Assembly (NCBI RefSeq): GCF_014694385.1
Contig: NZ_JAAOCA010000008.1
Location: 1 to 64,000 of the forward strand
DNA: 64,000 bases
Origin: Pseudomonas typographi
GTDB lineage: Bacteria > Pseudomonadota > Gammaproteobacteria > Pseudomonadales > Pseudomonadaceae
Direction of reading: 5' to 3'
Part shown: in pieces, positions 1,644-24,965 of the stretch
Layout: every line of letters starts with the position of its first letter
Numbering within the stretch: the first letter of the stretch is position 1
Notes under the pieces: model-generated
Database searches by the model: none
Told to the model about the DNA's origin: nothing
What the model saw: only the letters and a program-made list of their open reading frames with translations
Program-made: the position numbers and the translations under genes

Positions 1644-3325
1644 TGATAAATAGGGTCTCGAATGGCGGCCATGAGCTGGTCAACTCCGCGCTGACCGCCG
1701 GGATTTAGTGAGATCAGGGATACGGCGTTGAACAGCGCCATGAGCGGATCGATCTTTGCCGAGCCGCTGGCCTGCTTGGTGATCAGAATCGAGTTCGCGC
1801 GGGGCTCGACCCGGGCGTTACCGCAGCACCAAGCCATCATTGGCTGGCCACCGTGGATCATCTCGCCCTCGGCGAGGCGCCGTTCGGCCGTTTTGATCGC
1901 CCCGCCCAACTTCCAGCCCTGGGAGATACCCACTATCTTGTCTTCTGGGATGCCGGACTCTTCCAGCGCATCGCGTATCGCGCCGATACCTGCAGGGTCA
2001 ACACCTATCTGATCGAGCAGGCCTGATTCCTCGACCGAGAACGCCAGCTTGGCAACATCGTCGATGTCGTCGCCAATATGCTCGACCAAAGTGAGGTGGC
2101 CATCTCTTGCGAAATCCCTGAAGCGCGGCGCTTCTGCCTTACGACGTTCCAGCACCGATGGGTGCGCCCACGCATGTGTCCAAACCAGCCACCGGCGAGT
2201 ACCGGACTCACGACCGACGGCCGCAACACCCAGCAAGTCATCCAGGCCGCCGCCATCGATGCCGAGGTCAATCACCTCACAGCGCTTGATCAGATCTTCC
2301 AGAGCGGCGCAGAAGCCCACTGCTTGCCGCTCCCAGAATTCAGCGCCCGCCCAACGATCCGACATCAGCGCCAGGCCGATCTCAACGTTCAGGTGTTTGG
2401 CGAGGAAGCCGCGGAACGACTCCTCACCATCCAATTGAGCTTGGCTGTATCCCCGCTCTATGAACGCCTCATCCACCGATATGCCCAAGTTCGGGTTGGT
2501 GATGTAGGCGTTCGAGGCGTCGCGGTGCAAGCCTGCGTCAAGCATGTGCTTCGGAAACTCATAGAGCACCGGCAAGAATGATTTGTCATCGATCTTGCCG
2601 TCACGGACCTGGCGAGCGTACAGGAGCTTCTGCCGAAAGACCCCAGCCGGCGGCGCATCGGACTGGGTAGTTGCCCAGATAATGAAGCCCTCAGGCCGGG
2701 ATGCCAGCCCGCCAGTAGCTTCGCGCAGCATTGCTTCGGCGTTCGCGCGCTTGCCGAAGACCCAAAGCTCATCGATGAACACACCGATGGCCTTCTTGCC
2801 TGACACGGTATCACTGTCGGCCGCTACGACTTTCAGTGTGGCGCCAGTCTGGTAGTGGGTGACGGTGCGAAGGTGATCCTGAACTTTCAGCAGTGCGGAT
2901 AGCTCTTCATCTGCCCTAACCATGTCCCGAATCGGGATGTAGGAGTTGTCGGCAATTTCCTTGGTTGGCGCCAGAATGATGAATTCGCCAGAGGTGCGCC
3001 AATTCAAGACCAAGGCGGTAAGCATGATGCCGGCAGCGATGGTGGATTTCCCGTTTTTCTTGCTGATTAGCAGCATGAACTCGCTGATCAGACGGCGGCC
3101 GGTATCGGGATCGTAGGCGCCGAAGATGGCGGCGACGAATTCGTTGACCCAAGGCCGCACCGTCTCGCACATCAGCGGGCTGCCGGTGGCATCCACCATG
3201 CGAAGCGCACCGAACACCTCCAGCGCTTCTGCAGCTTGATCCGGGAAGAGCGGCGCGAAGGGGATCAAACTCTGGCGAGCGACAATCCTATGCTCCCAAT
3301 CGAGGCAAGCCGTCGACCACTTCAA
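1640..3325 (-). CDS. Terminase large subunit (TerL)
   Basis: The 561-aa packaging motor cuts concatemeric DNA and pumps it into the prohead. The N-terminal ATPase domain shows a Walker A variant SKKNGKST near residue 90 and a Walker B VFIDELW near residue 180; the C-terminal half has the acidic nuclease pattern (DLGIDGGGLDDLLG). Length is normal for the HK97/P27-like terminases. Its start overlaps the small subunit stop by 4 bases (ATGA) and its stop overlaps the membrane protein start, so all are one late operon. Confidence 0.95.
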   Translation of the reverse strand: MKWSTACLDWEHRIVARQSLIPFAPLFPDQAAEALEVFGALRMVDATGSPLMCETVRPWVNEFVAAIFGAYDPDTGRRLISEFMLLISKKNGKSTIAAGIMLTALVLNWRTSGEFIILAPTKEIADNSYIPIRDMVRADEELSALLKVQDHLRTVTHYQTGATLKVVAADSDTVSGKKAIGVFIDELWVFGKRANAEAMLREATGGLASRPEGFIIWATTQSDAPPAGVFRQKLLYARQVRDGKIDDKSFLPVLYEFPKHMLDAGLHRDASNAYITNPNLGISVDEAFIERGYSQAQLDGEESFRGFLAKHLNVEIGLALMSDRWAGAEFWERQAVGFCAALEDLIKRCEVIDLGIDGGGLDDLLGVAAVGRESGTRRWLVWTHAWAHPSVLERRKAEAPRFRDFARDGHLTLVEHIGDDIDDVAKLAFSVEESGLLDQIGVDPAGIGAIRDALEESGIPEDKIVGISQGWKLGGAIKTAERRLAEGEMIHGGQPMMAWCCGNARVEPRANSILITKQASGSAKIDPLMALFNAVSLISLNPGGQRGVDQLMAAIRDPIYQ

Positions 3326-7948: not shown

Positions 7949-8301
7949 GATGGCTCCGCAAATGATAAAGGCCCGCCGGAATGGCGAGCCTCTGAATTTG
8001 TGCTGTCTTCCCAGCTGCCCACCAAATCAACCCCAGGAGTCTTGAGAGCAAGGGCCTTCGGCTGCCGACGTTTTACGCAATCGCCGCACTGATCGGCTAG
8101 CGGCGTCCTGGCTCTCCCCGAAGGGTCCACCCAGGCAGTGGCACACCACAAAGTAAAAACCCCGCACTTGGCGGGGTCGGCCTGCATCACTGATACAGGG
8201 GCTGTACGTCATCCGTTGATCAACCTGAATGCGCTGCCAAAGCAGGACGTTACATGAAAATGAGGAAAGTTGGGATTGAAGAAACCGTCCCAGGGGATCA
8301 G
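7949..8301. other. Intergenic stretch with terminators
   Basis: No gene is supported. It holds the terminator of the aquaporin gene (listed separately) and a short hairpin just upstream of the 7948 start. The late promoter for the genes to the left may lie here, but I cannot point to a clear -35/-10 pair. Confidence 0.5.
8152..8178 (-). terminator. Rho-independent terminator after aqpZ
   Basis: Read on the minus strand, a GC-rich stem (ACCCCGCC / GCGGGGTT) with a short loop is followed by a T-run. It lies about 125 bases past the aquaporin stop and would insulate that cargo gene from the late operon. Confidence 0.75.
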
Positions 8302-17295: not shown

Positions 17296-18072
17296 ATGGG
17301 AAACAAAAGGTATAGTTTTGGTATGGACATCAAAGAAATACGCAAGCTACGGCTCAAACAGCTGATCAACCTGAAATTCGGCGGGGTCATGGCTCGCCTC
17401 GCTGAGGCGATCGGGCGGCAGTCGTCATATGTCGCGAGGATTCTTTCGGACAATCCCGATCACGGTAGGAATATCGGGGAAAAGCTTGCTCGCCAGATTG
17501 AAGAAGCTTGTGATTTGCCCTACAGATATCTCGATGCGCCTTTTGACGCTGAATTCTTTCCTGACGGAAATGGGTGGTCGGTGACGGGCGCGACGGACCA
17601 AAACACCCACGCACATCTCGATACGAATACCCCCGAGGCTGCCGATGCATCGCTCCTAATCCCTAAGATGGATGTCAGGATGGACATGAGCGAGTGGGAG
17701 CAGCGGCCCAATTTCGACAGGATGATCAGTTCAATTGGCCTTCATAAGAACTGGATTCGGATGAATCTGCAGGTTTCGGACCCAGGAAACCTCCGGGTAA
17801 TAACGGCTACAGGCAATAGCATGGAGCCCATGATCATGCACGGGGATCTCCTCCTCATTGATATCGGGGTTCGGTCGTTCAAGCAGGACGGCGTCTACGT
17901 GCTGGGCATCGACGGGCAGAGAATGGTGAAGCGGGTTCAAAAGGTGCTGGACGGCTTGCGCATCCTTTCTGACAACCGCATCTATCCGGAAATGATTATT
18001 CCAGAGGGTCGTCGGGACGAGATTGAGTTCTATGGCCGGGCTGTTTACACATGGACCGGAACGAACCTTTAG
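17296..18072 (+). CDS. CI-type phage repressor with S24 autoprotease domain
   Basis: A 258-aa repressor. The N-terminal helix-turn-helix region (KEIRKLRLKQLINLKFGGVM, then GRQSSYVARILSD) binds operators; the C-terminal S24/LexA-type domain has the catalytic serine in ATGNSMEPMIMHGD and the lysine in QRMVKRVQ, so RecA-stimulated self-cleavage and SOS induction are expected. An inner ATG at 17323 (MDIKEIRK) is also possible and is the more usual family start. A terminator follows. Confidence 0.93.
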   Translation: MGNKRYSFGMDIKEIRKLRLKQLINLKFGGVMARLAEAIGRQSSYVARILSDNPDHGRNIGEKLARQIEEACDLPYRYLDAPFDAEFFPDGNGWSVTGATDQNTHAHLDTNTPEAADASLLIPKMDVRMDMSEWEQRPNFDRMISSIGLHKNWIRMNLQVSDPGNLRVITATGNSMEPMIMHGDLLLIDIGVRSFKQDGVYVLGIDGQRMVKRVQKVLDGLRILSDNRIYPEMIIPEGRRDEIEFYGRAVYTWTGTNL

Positions 18073-18207: not shown

Positions 18208-18528
18208 ATGAACCTCACCACCATCACCGCAGGCGCCTGGACTGGGTTTCTCGGGAAAGGTCTTGCCCCTCGCGAACTGGAGGCTACTGCCTACGCAGCC
18301 AGCGATCTAACCGCAAAGGAAATCGCACGCCTGATGGGGATCACTCCGAAATCAGTTTCGAAGCGACTGGATGATGCGCGTTTCAAACTCGGCGCCCGAA
18401 CTGTTCGTGGCTTGGTCATGGAAGCCTTCAAGAGCGGACTTATAGCGGCGGTTTCCTGCGCGGCGCCAGCAGATCCTGACCCACAACAGGACCGTGATCA
18501 GGACCATCAGGGCGTGTTCCTCGCCTGA
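18208..18528 (+). CDS. Small LuxR-type helix-turn-helix protein
   Basis: A 106-aa protein with a GerE/LuxR-like DNA-binding helix set (LTAKEIARLMGITPKSVSKR, then LDDARFKLGA) and an acidic, Asp/Gln-rich tail. The ATG at 18208 follows GGAGC. It is the first gene of the rightward early operon and lies directly before the repeat array, so it may regulate the operon. No partner is known. Confidence 0.75.
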   Translation: MNLTTITAGAWTGFLGKGLAPRELEATAYAASDLTAKEIARLMGITPKSVSKRLDDARFKLGARTVRGLVMEAFKSGLIAAVSCAAPADPDPQQDRDQDHQGVFLA

Positions 18529-18530
18529 AT

Positions 18531-19431
18531 GCCAAGGCAGCGGCGAGCCCTTTCGCGGAGAGGGTTGTCCGGTGCTAAGCACCATAGGGCCAGGATTGGT
18601 TGGGCGGGGCCAGGCTGGGTTCGGCCAGGCAAGGCAAGGGCTGTTTACAGCGGTCTGCCCGTTCGATGAGCCGGCTTTCCGGTGGCGATAGCTGCCATGA
18701 GGCGGGTCGAGGTCCGGCTGGGCTTGGCGTGGCGGGACAAGGCGAGGCGTGGCAAGGGCTGTAATCAGCGTTCAGCCACTTCTCGCGAGGTGGTTGAGCG
18801 GTGCGGAAGCACTACGCGGCAGTGTCCGGCGCGGTCGGCTAGGGCTCGGCGCGGTAGGGCATGGTGTGGCACGGCAGTGTTTGGCCGGGCAAGGGCTGAT
18901 ATCAGCGTAATGCCCCTTCGCAGAGGGGGTATTGCGGTGCGAAAGCAACATCCCGACGAGTCTCGGCAAGGCTGGGCGTGGTTCGGCAAGCGGGGTATGG
19001 CCGGGTCCGGCGTGCCAAGGGCTGCAAAGCAGCGTTGAGCCGCTTCTCTGAGGCGGTTCAGCGGTGACAGCGGTCATCATTGGGCTAGGTGAGGCGGGGC
19101 TTGGCACGGCAAGGCATGGGCTACAGCGTAGCGGCCAGCACCTTCGTAGAGGGTGCTTTCCGGTACTGAGTACCTTGGCGCGCAGAGGCGAGCAGAGGCT
19201 AGGCAAGGCGGTGCCAGGTTAGGCAAGGGCTGAAACAGCGTAATGCTCATTCCCAGAGTGGGCATTACGGTGCGAAGGCGCCATTTCGAGAGGCTATGTT
19301 GGGCTCGGTAGTGCTCGGCCAGGCAAGGCAAGGCAAGGCAAGGCAAGGTTAGGCAAGGGCTGGATGTTCCAGCGCACTGTCCACCAATCCGTGGGCAGTG
19401 CAGTAAAACAACCATCAGTGGAGACATCGCA
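18531..19431 (+). repeat. Tandem array of three-hairpin units with pentanucleotide spacers
   Basis: Eight units fill this 0.9 kb. P1 (GCTG/CAGC type) starts at 18640, 18758, 18895, 19021, 19120, 19229 and 19359; the unit before 18640 has only a weak P1. P2 has apical TTC-N3-GAG (N4 in the third unit); P3 is of GGTGC/GCACC type with GNRA-like loops (GAAA, GGAA, GATA). Pairs change together: P1 GCTG/CAGC, GCTAC/GTAGC, GCTGGA/TCCAGC; P3 GGTGC/GCACC, GGTAC/GTACC, GGTGAC/GTCATC. Spacers are KGYNN pentamers in phase with the next GGGCTG: 11, 12, 16, about 12, 8, 11 and 14 of them. GNRA-type loops favour plus-strand RNA. The role is unknown; a structured RNA array is inferred. Confidence 0.85.
19359..19401 (+). 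promoter_or_regulatory. Variant last unit of the array, leader hairpins of the next gene
   Basis: P1 is extended to six pairs (GCTGGA/TCCAGC) and P2 to an 11-bp stem (19374-19384 with 19391-19401) with a CAATCC loop in place of TTC-N3-GAG. P3 is missing. The hairpins end 30 bases before the GTG start, so they could time translation or RNA release. Confidence 0.65.
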
Positions 19432-20016
19432 GTGCAAACCATCAAACTGAAACTCATTGGGCAATCGCCCCTTCTGATGCACTCTGATCGCTTCAGCAAT
19501 CCGCTGGATAAAGCGACCAAGGAACACAAGGTTCTCACCAGCAAGCGCAAAAAACTTGATGAAGACCACGAACTGATTGCCAAGTCAGAATGGATGGGTT
19601 CGCTGTATCACGATGCCGAACTGGGTCCTTTCGTGCCCGGCCAGAACATCAAGTCCGCCTTGGTCGGTGCTGCCAAAATCCAACGGCTCGGTGCAAGTTT
19701 CAAGCGCGCGGTACTGGTGCTCGACGACCGTTGCAAGTTGGATTACTTTGGCCCCAAAGATCCCGAAGGAATGTTCGCTAATCCTCGGTTCGTGGACTCA
19801 CGCAGTGTAGTGGTGGGCACTTCTCGATTGATCCGCTATCGCCCTAAGTTCCAAGACTGGTCGACAACCGTCGATGTGATGTTTTCGCCTGAAATGATCG
19901 AGCGCGACGATGTTATCCGGGCCGCCGAGAACGCAGGTCTGTTCGTGGGGCTTTGCGATTATCGTCCCGAGAAAGGCGGCTCCTTTGGCCGCTTCAGCGT
20001 CGAGGTGATCGAATGA
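19432..20016 (+). CDS. Conserved-type phage protein, possible RAMP/Cas7-like fold
   Basis: A 194-aa protein starting at GTG, eight bases after GGAG. It opens with a strand then LIGQSPLLMHSDR, a Lys-rich stretch (TSKRKKLDEDHELIAKSEW), FVPGQNIKSALVGAAK, and ends in GLCDYRPEKGGSFGRFSVEV. A Gly-rich loop before the last strand and the N-terminal strand/PLL pattern recall RAMP proteins such as Cas7, but similarity is by eye and weak. It directly follows the hairpin array and is coupled (ATGA) to the next gene, so RNA binding is a sensible guess. In many phages this operon site holds recombination genes, so an annealing or DNA-repair role is an alternative. Confidence 0.35.
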   Translation: MQTIKLKLIGQSPLLMHSDRFSNPLDKATKEHKVLTSKRKKLDEDHELIAKSEWMGSLYHDAELGPFVPGQNIKSALVGAAKIQRLGASFKRAVLVLDDRCKLDYFGPKDPEGMFANPRFVDSRSVVVGTSRLIRYRPKFQDWSTTVDVMFSPEMIERDDVIRAAENAGLFVGLCDYRPEKGGSFGRFSVEVIE

Positions 20017-20483
20017 GCCGTCCTACCCTACTGCCGGAGTGGCGCCAGGCCGCCAACGATATTGCCGAGGGCTTCAAGTACGGCGATCTGATCACGCTCG
20101 ATTGGTTGCGGGAAGCCTTCCACCTGGATGAGCCGAAGACGATCGAAGGGTTTCGCGCATTCCAGTTTGCGTTCCTCAGCAACATGGATTCTCTGCGCCA
20201 GGAACTGCTTCAAGAACACCGCCTGCTATTGACCAGTGTTCGCGGCGTTGGATATGAGCTGATCGAGCCGAACGAACAAGTTGAAACAGCCTGGCAATCA
20301 ACCTTCGTCAAAGTGAAGCGGGAACTTACCAAACTGGCCGGCGCCATTCGCCATATTCGTTATGACGAACTGAGCGATGACAAGCGACGCGAACATGCAG
20401 ATGCACAAGCAAAACTTTCGGGCATTCATGCTTTTGTTCAGCGCGAAGGCAAACGCAAGCAGAGCCTACTGAAAATTAGCTGA
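20013..20483 (+). CDS. Partner of the array-linked protein, unknown
   Basis: A 156-aa protein coupled by ATGA to the preceding gene. The middle has LLLTSVRGVGYELIEPNEQ, like the wing of an OmpR-type winged helix (typical VRGxGYxL), within a helical region; the C-terminal half is basic and helical (KVKRELTKLAGAIRHIRY, EGKRKQSLLK). Nucleic-acid binding is likely, though the exact fold is not established. The fixed coupling suggests a two-protein complex. Confidence 0.55.
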   Translation: MSRPTLLPEWRQAANDIAEGFKYGDLITLDWLREAFHLDEPKTIEGFRAFQFAFLSNMDSLRQELLQEHRLLLTSVRGVGYELIEPNEQVETAWQSTFVKVKRELTKLAGAIRHIRYDELSDDKRREHADAQAKLSGIHAFVQREGKRKQSLLKIS

Positions 20484-20556
20484 TGTAGTAACCAAATTTA
20501 TTGGACTGCCAAGTTATCCGGCCGGGCGGAGCCTTGCCTAAAGGATGGAGGTGTAC

Positions 20557-22398: not shown

Positions 22399-22640
22399 AA
22401 ACGCACACTGCCCACACCAACATCACGACCTACACCGCCACGGTGTCCGAAGCGGATGTCACGCGCGCCTTGTGCGGCCTGCTGGCCCAACTGCACGGGT
22501 TGAACTTGGACGAGCCAGGCGTGCGTATCCGTGGCTATCACAGCTCGGAAGATACCTCGACTGGCTACAAGCACTTCTGGAAGATCGAGGTGATCGTGGA
22601 CCATTCTCTGGAGGCACGCCCACATGCAGATGAAGCCTAA
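22395..22640 (+). CDS. Small phage protein, unknown
   Basis: An 81-aa protein, N-terminus Thr-rich, with a central helix and a strand-rich end (VRIRGYHSSEDTSTGYKHFW). It overlaps the previous gene by four bases and the next by 17. No function is seen. Confidence 0.6.
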   Translation: MKTHTAHTNITTYTATVSEADVTRALCGLLAQLHGLNLDEPGVRIRGYHSSEDTSTGYKHFWKIEVIVDHSLEARPHADEA

Positions 22641-23376
22641 GCATGCCGAACGGTTGCAAGAGATCGCTGCGCTTCCCCACTTGAGCCCACGAAGCCAACT
22701 GATCATTGCTCGGCGGATGGCCAGGGTGTACGTGGCCGAAACAGAGTGGGGCAGCAGCCTGCTTAACGCCGCCCTGAGGAAGGCAAAAGCTGGGTTGCCA
22801 TTCACCGAGAAGCGAGTGGCGCACCTCAAAGAAATGCGCGAAGAGCTGCGTGACGACTATGGGAGCAGCATGGTCGACCTGGCCGACTGGCTGTATTCGG
22901 TCGACCGCGACATCACAGCCCTTTATGGTTTCGATGGGATATGCGACCTATTGGAGGTGAACCCTGTACACCGGGCGGAAGTGCTCGAGTACGCCGAGGA
23001 CAAATCCAGGGCGATATCGGCGATTGCCTTCGTTTCCGGCCTTGAGGAAAGCGCCAGCAGGCAGTCGGGCCGTCATCCCGCTGATTGGAAGGATGGCCCA
23101 CTGTTCAACCTCTTCATGCGCAAATTCCAGCAACTGATGCTGGATGAGACCAACGCGCTCCCCGACCCATTCGCGCCCGGCGGGCCGTTCTACGGCGTGC
23201 CGACCTATCACCAGCACCCGGACGGCACCATGGTACGCGCTACGCCAGCACTGACAGTGCATGACGGTGCCGACAGCAAGGTGGTGGCCAGCAGGTCGGG
23301 GCGGCGAAGCAAGTCAGAATCGGGCGCTGGCGCGACAGTTTCTAGCATCAACCACAACCTGACGCGTCAGGACTGA
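22624..23376 (+). CDS. Early phage protein, unknown
   Basis: A 250-aa soluble protein. Residues 1-130 are mostly helical, with basic patches (AALRKAKAGLPFTEKRVAHL); the C-terminal 50 residues are Gly/Ser/Arg-rich and probably flexible. It is the largest unknown of this operon. No catalytic motif is visible. Confidence 0.65.
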   Translation: MQMKPKHAERLQEIAALPHLSPRSQLIIARRMARVYVAETEWGSSLLNAALRKAKAGLPFTEKRVAHLKEMREELRDDYGSSMVDLADWLYSVDRDITALYGFDGICDLLEVNPVHRAEVLEYAEDKSRAISAIAFVSGLEESASRQSGRHPADWKDGPLFNLFMRKFQQLMLDETNALPDPFAPGGPFYGVPTYHQHPDGTMVRATPALTVHDGADSKVVASRSGRRSKSESGAGATVSSINHNLTRQD

Positions 23377-23619: not shown

Positions 23620-24756
23620 ATGTCACCGCGCCCACGCAAACCGACCAATCGGAAGCTGCCGCCGAACCTGTACCCGAACGGCAAGTATTTCCGGTACAAG
23701 AACCCCATCACGGGGAAGATGACGAGCATCAACGAGTCGCTGGACCGCGCCATTCACTTGGCCAAGGCCGCCAACGCCAAGCTGGCCCCACTAATGACTG
23801 ACAACGGGGCCATGCTGGAGACGATCACGGGCGACCGCCTGCCGAACATGAAGCTACTTATTGACCGGTTCGAGGTTGAATGGCTGCCTGAGCGGGGTTA
23901 TGCGAAGGGCACGCTCGGTGAGATCGGCTACAAGATCGAGCGGTATCGCAAGGACCTGGGCGACCGGCTAGTGGGCCAGATCGATGTAATGGAGGTGGCC
24001 AAGTATCTGGATCAGTTCAGCAACAACGCCTACACCAAGCATCGCGGCTTGCTGGTGAACGTCTTCGCCTTCGCGGTAGCAAAAGGTATGGCCGAGCGGA
24101 ACGTGGCCGAGCTTACCTTAGTGAAGAAGGAAGGCGAGAAGAAGCGCCAGCGGCACACCATGGAGGGGGTTCAAAAGATCCTCGATGCCGAAACCACGCC
24201 CGAATGGCTCAAGCGCGCGATCAAGCTGGGTCTGACCAGCCTCCAGCGCCGTGAAGATATCGTGACCTGGAAGAAGTCTGCGGTGGATCTGGAGGCGAAC
24301 ACTATCAAGGTGTCGCCCGGGAAGACTGAAGCCTACGGAAACCCCGTACACCTAAAGATCACCATGGGTAAGGCGCTGCGCGAAGTAGTGATGGAGTGCA
24401 TGAAGTCTCCGATCCTGTCGCCCTACCTGATCCACTATCGGCCCCGGGCGCGGCGGAAGGAACAGGTGGACGCGAAAGAGCACTGGACGGCTGTCACCCC
24501 CGACTATCTATCGAAAGGCTTCCGAAAAGCCAGGGATGAGGCACATGCCTACGACTACCTGCCAGCCCACGAACGACCAACTTTTCACGAGATACGGGCG
24601 TTGGGTTCCTGGCTCTATGAGCAGCAGAAATTCTCTACCGACTATGTTCAGGCGCTCATGGGGCACGCAACTCCCGAAATGACCGAGAGGTACCAGGACG
24701 GGCACGTAGTGAAGGAAATCCGGTACGTCGAGGTGAAGGCAGATCTGGCAATCTGA
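23620..24756 (+). CDS. int: Tyrosine-family phage integrase
   Basis: A 378-aa site-specific recombinase. The first 60 residues form a lambda-like arm-binding domain; a core-binding SAM-like domain follows; the catalytic domain shows Arg in LTSLQRREDIVTWKK, HEIR near residue 325, GHATPEM and the nucleophile tyrosine in MTERYQDG. It catalyses integration at the tRNA-Val site next to it and, with the excisionase-like partner, excision. The start lies just after the partner's stop. Confidence 0.96.
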   Translation: MSPRPRKPTNRKLPPNLYPNGKYFRYKNPITGKMTSINESLDRAIHLAKAANAKLAPLMTDNGAMLETITGDRLPNMKLLIDRFEVEWLPERGYAKGTLGEIGYKIERYRKDLGDRLVGQIDVMEVAKYLDQFSNNAYTKHRGLLVNVFAFAVAKGMAERNVAELTLVKKEGEKKRQRHTMEGVQKILDAETTPEWLKRAIKLGLTSLQRREDIVTWKKSAVDLEANTIKVSPGKTEAYGNPVHLKITMGKALREVVMECMKSPILSPYLIHYRPRARRKEQVDAKEHWTAVTPDYLSKGFRKARDEAHAYDYLPAHERPTFHEIRALGSWLYEQQKFSTDYVQALMGHATPEMTERYQDGHVVKEIRYVEVKADLAI

Positions 24757-24888: not shown

Positions 24889-24965
24889 TGGTAGGCACAA
24901 TTGGACTCGAACCAACGACCCCCACCATGTCAAGGTGGTGCTCTAACCAACTGAGCTATGTGCCT
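24889..24965 (-). tRNA. tRNA-Val (GAC)
   Basis: A complete 77-nt cloverleaf: acceptor AGGCACA / TGTGCCT, D-arm GCTC-GAGC, anticodon loop TTGACAT, T-arm with TTCGAGT, encoded CCA. Its 3' end points to the prophage integrase, so the 3' half is the likely attB target. Confidence 0.96.

Follow-up and report, generated by a model that had tools for sequence, protein, structure and literature searches.

The window, a stretch of 64,000 nucleotides of Pseudomonas typographi (contig NZ_JAAOCA010000008.1, positions 1 to 64,000), contains a prophage with an array of RNA hairpins in its regulatory region. A gene for a CI-like repressor with an S24 peptidase domain (17296..18072, + strand; PF00717, E 3.9e-18; phrog_4 and phrog_6201) lies upstream of the array, and a LuxR/sigma-like HTH gene (18208..18528, +; phrog_3282 'sigma factor', E 7.9e-35) is found directly 5' of it. 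The array is followed by vipr (19432..20016, +; phrog_4652), predicted to encode a RAMP (Csm3/Cas7-like) protein, and by a vap-like second gene (20013..20483, +; phrog_5926), both with open reading frames. A scan for promoters and terminators found nothing exceeding shuffles, and no promoter is therefore claimed. A CsrA-like gene (PF02599; 20545-20964) comes after the vipr-vap pair, and an integrase gene (23620-24756) adjoins a tRNA-Val gene (24889-24965), a junction that is likely the attachment site of the window prophage. Contig C133 of the same genome carries a second prophage with integrase, CI-like repressor, antirepressor, terminase and portal genes; a phrog_7215 gene of unknown function is located near the integrase in both prophages (window 22624-23376, C133:43346-44098). 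On the minus strand at 8060-8141, the window also encodes a Proteo-phage-1 RNA (RF03044, 75.5 bits).

The vipr product has no Pfam match, and phrog_4652 is a family of unknown function. Its structure model (pLDDT 91) matched 69 Foldseek rows at E <= 0.001, the best at E 1.5e-5, and among the rows listed 50 of 50 are chains of CRISPR effector complexes, mostly of the Csm3/Cas7 type. Alignment of the model with VIA-align gave Z scores of up to 11.0 (rmsd 3.3 over 154 residues). As modelled, the protein has a Csm3/Cas7-type RAMP fold, and no cas family was found among the ten neighbouring genes scanned. The same fold search with the second, vap-like protein returned no match at E <= 0.001, so that a DNA-binding role for it rests on the preprint describing such proteins (PMC13142463).

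Eight hairpin elements, with starts 99-137 bases apart, make up the array. By our own reading, the first or leader element (18536..18584; 42.6 bits) lacks the P1 5' arm and comprises hairpins P2 and P3; the last element (19357..19405; 35.3 bits) has P1 and P2 but lacks P3. Between them lie six elements with P1, P2 and P3, at 18638..18694 (53.8 bits), 18756..18813 (64 bits), 18893..18949 (67.5 bits), 19019..19076 (57.1 bits), 19118..19175 (56.8 bits) and 19227..19282 (60.8 bits), all eight being on the plus strand. The 911-base array stretch folds to -452.9 kcal/mol, whereas shuffled versions average -398.7 (z = -10.4; 0 of 20 shuffles as low). The eight hairpin units of the original prediction are thus borne out at their place, its P1-P2-P3 plan holds for the middle six and not for the two ends, and its apical TTC-N3-GAG occurs in six of the eight, one element having N4 and the last lacking the motif.

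That paired bases change together, also part of the original prediction, was upheld. Over the whole structure of the eight elements 20 cells are changed on both sides, compared with 7.9 in shuffles (0/500), and 7 of the 13 pairs of P2 are altered on both sides. The covariation claimed for P1 stands in its variable upper part, to which it is confined; the inner pairs GCT/AGC are invariant (7/7 elements with letters). The model matched 70 times, in 22 of the 33 sources searched, three of these being weak minus-strand matches; the matches give 50 distinct rows, in which 12 of the 13 P2 pairs show two-sided change. Their alignment, which was built by fitting to the model and is biased in its favour, holds 149 two-sided cells against 49.7 when shuffled (0/500). 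P3 is only partly captured by the alignment of the eight elements, with 54% of its cells paired.

P1 and then P2 follow every guide as a structured 3' tail. Because the first element lacks the P1 5' arm and the last lacks P3, P3 seems tied to the following guide and P1 to the preceding one, leaving P2 between guides, where it presumably serves as a processing or spacer hairpin. The array of phage LESphi2 has the same incomplete first and last elements by our own reading, and in phage SUSP1 a hairpin with a TTC-N3-GAG apex lies directly upstream of two of the guide tracts. Searched against Rfam, the array had no match at the gathering score, the best (E 0.96) falling far under the cut-off. A model of the P1-P2-P3 element (R1) detected arrays in only two of 189 genus genomes, the window's own and G127, both with vipr. 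Other matches of the model fall in Pseudomonas and Burkholderiales loci, and SUSP1 and ECML-1 have none.

Although the hairpins are real, the original prediction, in describing the array as hairpins, missed its functional core. Between the elements lie seven tracts of GGY-NN pentamers, in register ahead of GGGCT[GA]. GG recurs at a lag of five bases 56 times, where shuffles average 20.5 (z 9.1), and at lags of 10 and 15 bases 56 and 53 times against about 20 expected (z 8.9 and 7.7). Parsed into units backwards from each GGGCT[GA], guides 1 to 7 contain 10, 11, 15, 13 (one of 4 bases), 7, 10 and 14 units. In 66 units of six guides (guide 4 excluded), G occupies position 1 in 61 and likewise position 2, a pyrimidine (C or T) stands at position 3 in 63, and positions 4-5 are mixed.

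All seven guides are on the plus strand. Guide 1 (18588..18637; 10 pentamers) reads NN = CA TT TG GG CA TG TC CA AA AA, guide 2 (18701..18755; 11 pentamers) GG GA CC TG TT GT GG AA GA GT AA, and guide 3 (18818..18892; 15 pentamers) AG CC GC CG AG TC GC AG AT GT AC AG TT CG AA. Guide 4 (18955..19018) consists of 12 pentamers and a 4-base unit (GCGG), with NN = GA TC AA TG GT TC AA GG AT CG CC GT AA. Guide 5 (19083..19117; 7 pentamers) reads TA GA GG TT AC AA AT, guide 6 (19177..19226; 10 pentamers) GC GA GA GA TA AA GG CA TA AA, and guide 7 (19287..19356; 14 pentamers) GA TA TG TC AG TC CA AA AA AA AA AA TA AA, its 3' half being mostly a GGCAA run. Runs of a single pentamer inside guides, namely GGCAA at 19317-19358 of the window and GGCGT in a guide of L003 (phage CF28b), are as slippage would give. 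It seems that guides degrade as whole pentamers are gained or lost.

This arrangement has a published counterpart. VIPR (Viral Interference Programmable Repeat), described in a preprint of April 2026, combines a RAMP-like Vipr protein with vrRNAs of alternating GGY and NN, the work there being on phage SUSP1 and on a prophage of P. fulva (PMC13142463). In a vrRNA, 9-16 YNNGG repeats keep GGY constant while NN varies; seven VIPR types exist, and the SUSP1 vrRNA has a tail with a pseudoknot (PMC13142463). The window protein is 38% identical to SUSP1 Vipr over 194 aa, and the second-gene protein is 24% identical (E 1e-14) to the second gene product of the SUSP1 locus; the SUSP1 reading frames were equated with the published vipr and vap1 on the basis of the phage and of where in it they lie. 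GGY tracts occur at 24 of 29 vipr loci, a count that excludes L003 (found via its array) and five near-duplicate loci, versus 0 of 369 control loci (3.0 Mb). This homology and the tracts at vipr loci identify array, vipr and vap as one system, and the interval is almost certainly the guide-RNA array of a phage-encoded VIPR system. Judged from sequence, the system is likely type II, the class to which its homologue in SUSP1 is assigned (PMC13142463).

The 'candidate new structured RNA system' of the original prediction therefore belongs to a kind described as VIPR in April 2026 (PMC13142463), to which the window array adds another member. Its suggestion of a guide RNA for the adjacent protein fits, given the RAMP fold, the homology to SUSP1 Vipr and tracts that decode to phage genes, with binding as a prediction. 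Published VIPR systems and the window have in common a RAMP-fold Vipr gene, a vap gene, a phage location, GGY-NN guides with structured tails, and 1-nt-skip targets whose skips fall at wobble bases and which are other phages' regulators. The window differs in having eight elements and seven guides, and six of the seven guides have 10-15 units, guide 5 with its 7 falling under the published 9-16. A closer relative is LESphi2 of P. aeruginosa LESB58 (OQ594955.1), which has the same order of cI, sigma-like gene, array, vipr and second gene. Its vipr is 87% identical to that of the window, but its array has three guide tracts, and the guides differ. A scan of genome contigs with the single vipr protein found no relative; with alignment A2 it found 17 loci. 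GGY-NN tracts also adjoin distant vipr genes in Bacteroidetes, actinomycete and acidobacterial assemblies (L402 6127-6270, L398, L399), loci at which model R1 has no match.

The published rule reads NN, skips one target base and reads NN again. It was applied to 76 distinct guide strings, taken from 63 listed loci and five window guides entered by hand. With a skip of 1, the best corpus match had 0 mismatches for 11 guides and 1 mismatch for 8; the corpus was partly fetched with window guides, and 13 of these 19 guides come from other arrays. With a skip of 0 or 2, none of the 76 guides had a match under 2 mismatches. A copy of guide 1 of the window is also found in L422, a phage of a distant VIPR lineage with a vipr 52% identical. 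Compared with the window copy (18588-18637), the eight target-specifying NN are kept and three Y differ, along with one tail-proximal NN. Retention of NN with change at Y is the prediction of a code read at NN alone. From such sequence comparisons, guides seem to move between VIPR systems.

A search for 20 of the 28 bases of guide 3 in 298 genus genomes found two exact sites (G215 and G163) and, at <=2 mismatches, 43 places against 5 for the reversed control, many of the 43 being a different conserved sequence with a fit of only 22/28 over the complete guide. In viral contigs 14 bases were searched, with L211 and L279 among the matches listed. Once the held-out bases are included, 28/28 match in four loci (L289, L290, L211 and L279). 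The target is a capsid gene (PF05065, E 2.4e-34, for the one protein scanned, the others reading as near-identical), and the sites lie on its opposite strand with the skips on wobble bases.

The 16-base core of guide 2 matched at least 120 viral stretches, compared with 15 and 17 for the 16-base skip patterns of guides 7 and 4 as controls. At 20/20 there are 46 viral matches, spelling the motif GEPWFVGKDV, which we take to be a motif of Bro-N antirepressors; a Bro-N protein from G086 has GEPWFIALEL at this position. Skipping of the wobble base lets a single guide recognise a protein motif and not just one gene. In 179 genus genomes guide 2 had 8 places at <=2 mismatches, 19/20 being the best fit, versus 4 for the control. 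Full 16/16 matches of guide 1 fall in G045, G086 and G170, in genes with a common C-terminal region. Of their products, that of G086 contains a Bro-N domain and that of G045 had no Pfam match, so that 'antirepressor' as a target of guide 1 rests on G086 and the shared C-terminal part. Its genus search at 2 mismatches found 10 places against 24 for the reversed control; the raw counts being below control, it is the exact hits within a single gene family that carry weight. Noise dominates the genus searches at 2 mismatches for guides 1, 2, 4 and 6. An exact match of guide 1 in L017 lies out of frame in an unrelated ORF and looks like chance.

Guides 4, 6 and 7 point to the co-resident prophage on C133, where they match two genes. 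Guide 6 matches the helicase gene at 17/18 (C133:53364), for which about 0.01 would be expected by chance by our own arithmetic; its genus search at 2 mismatches gave 39 places versus 23 for the control. Guide 7 matches an Lcl_C-like gene at 15/16, and at 16/16 its homolog in L314, the PF07603 match of which is below the Pfam cut-off. L314 alone was accepted among 15 viral stretches matched by guide 7, since the homolog in the own genome agrees. Guide 4 matches the same Lcl_C-like gene at 12/12 and 14/14 flanking two target codons; the pairing needs these two codons to be skipped, the guide being two units and one base short. In fixed register, guide 4 had no match in 249 genus genomes. Two exact matches were rejected: that of guide 6 in L288, which looks like chance, out of frame in an unrelated ORF, and that of guide 4 in L335 (20/20; from 17 viral stretches with 16 bases), which lies in a different gene. 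Guide 5 had no target, and the window itself had no site for any guide within 2-6 mismatches, the limit being set by guide length.

These guides also bear on whether the array is still functional. It could be a VIPR array that is no longer active, with guides decayed by pentamer slippage and by deletion and kept as debris, as the shortened guide 4, the GGCAA run of guide 7 and the 7 pentamers of guide 5 would suggest. Against this stand the perfect matches of guides 1, 2 and 3 over 16, 20 and 28 specified bases, the open frames of vipr and vap, and P2 pairs kept by compensation, which make decay an improbable account of the array as a whole. RNA expression, Vipr binding, the 1-nt-skip code and transcriptional repression are described for SUSP1 and P. 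fulva (PMC13142463), and by analogy the window copy is presumably expressed and acting on its matched targets.

For a functional VIPR array, one transcript in the same direction as cI and vipr would carry the eight elements separating seven guides, each guide being a GGY-NN run followed by a structured 3' tail of P1 and then P2. The RAMP-fold Vipr from the next gene would coat the guide, with GGY as protein-facing scaffold and NN presented. NN would pair with DNA, one target base being skipped in between, which in coding targets is the wobble base. The bound complex may then block transcription of rival phage genes (antirepressors, capsid, helicase and the Lcl_C-like gene), including genes of the second prophage in the same chromosome. 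The array also seems aimed at a prophage in the same cell, where cutting would hardly be tolerable and repression could be.

The original prediction also allowed a cis antitermination RNA like the put sites of HK022, in which hairpins after an early promoter modify RNA polymerase. The phage regulatory region and the strong hairpins would suit such an RNA, but we give it very little credence, as pentamer tracts mark vipr loci and none of the controls, lie downstream of vipr in Medea1, and decode to phage genes; put-like action explains neither the tracts nor their target matches. To our knowledge, put sites carry no pentamer tracts. A sponge for CsrA/RsmA, a form of the sponge role proposed earlier, could be imagined from the CsrA-like protein (PF02599) encoded downstream at 20545. 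GGA, the CsrA motif, is however depleted in the array (6 versus 14.0 in shuffles, with 0/500 as low), and this role is equally hard to credit. A classical CRISPR array or a TIGR-type array has next to no chance of being correct, for despite regular element spacing beside a RAMP-fold gene, the elements are on average 64% identical per column, with paired changes, and not near-identical repeats, and the guides are GGY-NN and not contiguous spacers, skip-less reading in the corpus never giving fewer than 2 mismatches among the 76 guides.

The RAMPs of class 1 CRISPR systems (Csm3, Cas7) have their protein fold in common with the window Vipr, but the window guides are non-contiguous, the elements are not conserved in sequence, and no cas family is nearby. 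Like the window array, TIGR-Tas comprises tandem guide arrays in phages with DNA targeting, and the Tas proteins are described as a different family (PMC12045711).

The VIPR array is an independent, sequence-only check of a recently published guide code, with targets found by rule and held-out bases matching. Its most valuable part lies outside the array coordinates, in phages that lack vipr and carry guides against it. The window array as query retrieved three P. aeruginosa phage records (CF28b, CF55b and BR133a), all without vipr and labelled partial genomes, whose contigs may be fragments. A leader pattern retrieved 43 viral stretches, for a total of 46 array-bearing records, of which 20 have vipr and 26 show none (20 of at least 37 kb and six shorter fragments, none stated complete). 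The vipr-less units or leaders are those of L003 (CF28b, 2892-3095), L404, L405 and 23 of L416-L458.

The orphan guide of CF28b matches the window vipr at 24/24 on the minus strand (19515..19550), read with a 1-nt skip and, by our own reading, with skips at wobble bases; in LESphi2-type viprs it matches at 23/24. In a corpus of 448 loci, 52 of them with vipr, this guide has 40 vipr matches at <=5/24 mismatches and none outside vipr. Five of the 26 orphan records carry the CF28b guide, 16 a variant of it and three guides to two other vipr motifs; the other two (L440 and L447) have no readable guide and were left out. In all 24 readable records (6 distinct guides) the guide thus points to a vipr motif.

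The commonest variant (the L419 group, 16 records) matches 19/24 over its full length in 16 vipr matches and is there tied at 5/24 mismatches with one unrelated locus, L132; it is weak over full length because two units are missing. Its best part matches at 18/20, with 15 of 15 best matches in vipr. The L426 guide is best in vipr at 21/24 (3 mismatches, versus 5 for the best elsewhere), and that of L435, missed by the script and read by hand, at 18/20 (2 mismatches of 20, versus 4 elsewhere). For L433 there are 12 vipr matches at 1-2/22 mismatches (best 21/22) and none elsewhere under 6.

An automatic procedure based on the best 10-unit part found that five of five distinct orphan guides match vipr best, compared with none of 69 guides from other arrays, 37 of which match something within 2 mismatches (5/5 versus 0/37, p = 1.2e-6). 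These five guides represent three lineages (with sites KEHKVLTSKRK, LLMHADKFANPL and YDARTVKVGTA), and counted by lineage the comparison becomes 3/3 versus 0/37, about 1e-4 by our own arithmetic. The corpus used for this comparison comprises 3.8 Mb, 0.8% of it vipr, and is not the whole of the databases.

We lean towards reading the orphan guides of vipr-less Pseudomonas prophages as an RNA anti-VIPR that turns a rival Vipr on its own gene. Such an RNA would work only once a VIPR phage supplies Vipr, which would then silence its own gene. In the reverse direction, LESphi2-type guides (L001/L452/L453/L455 and L011/L417) match CF28b at 21/22 and 18/18 (L003 2754-2785 and 2488-2513), so that both groups seem engaged in an arms race of guide against guide. 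If the orphan guides work in this way, they counter VIPR with RNA of its own kind, and the arms race is directly testable.

Racr RNA anti-CRISPRs offer a parallel, as a lone guide-like RNA in a phage set against a rival RNA-guided system, like the CF28b orphan units; Racrs are described as mimics of CRISPR repeats (PMC10651486), whereas the VIPR orphan units carry a guide matching the rival effector gene. The main text of the VIPR preprint makes no mention of orphan arrays, orphan guides or anti-VIPR, and its supplement may list such units (PMC13142463). In the literature searched, the system name appears in that preprint alone, other listed uses of 'anti-vipr', 'orphan vrRNA' or 'vrRNAs' being unrelated.

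The surroundings of the orphan units show two further features. In L426 and L433, downstream of the arrays, and in L003 (3711-4478), orphan units lie upstream of Bro-N/Rha-type antirepressor-like genes, the class of antirepressor at which window guides 1 and 2 are aimed. In L435, by our own reading, a reading frame of CsrA-like appearance is located downstream of the orphan unit.
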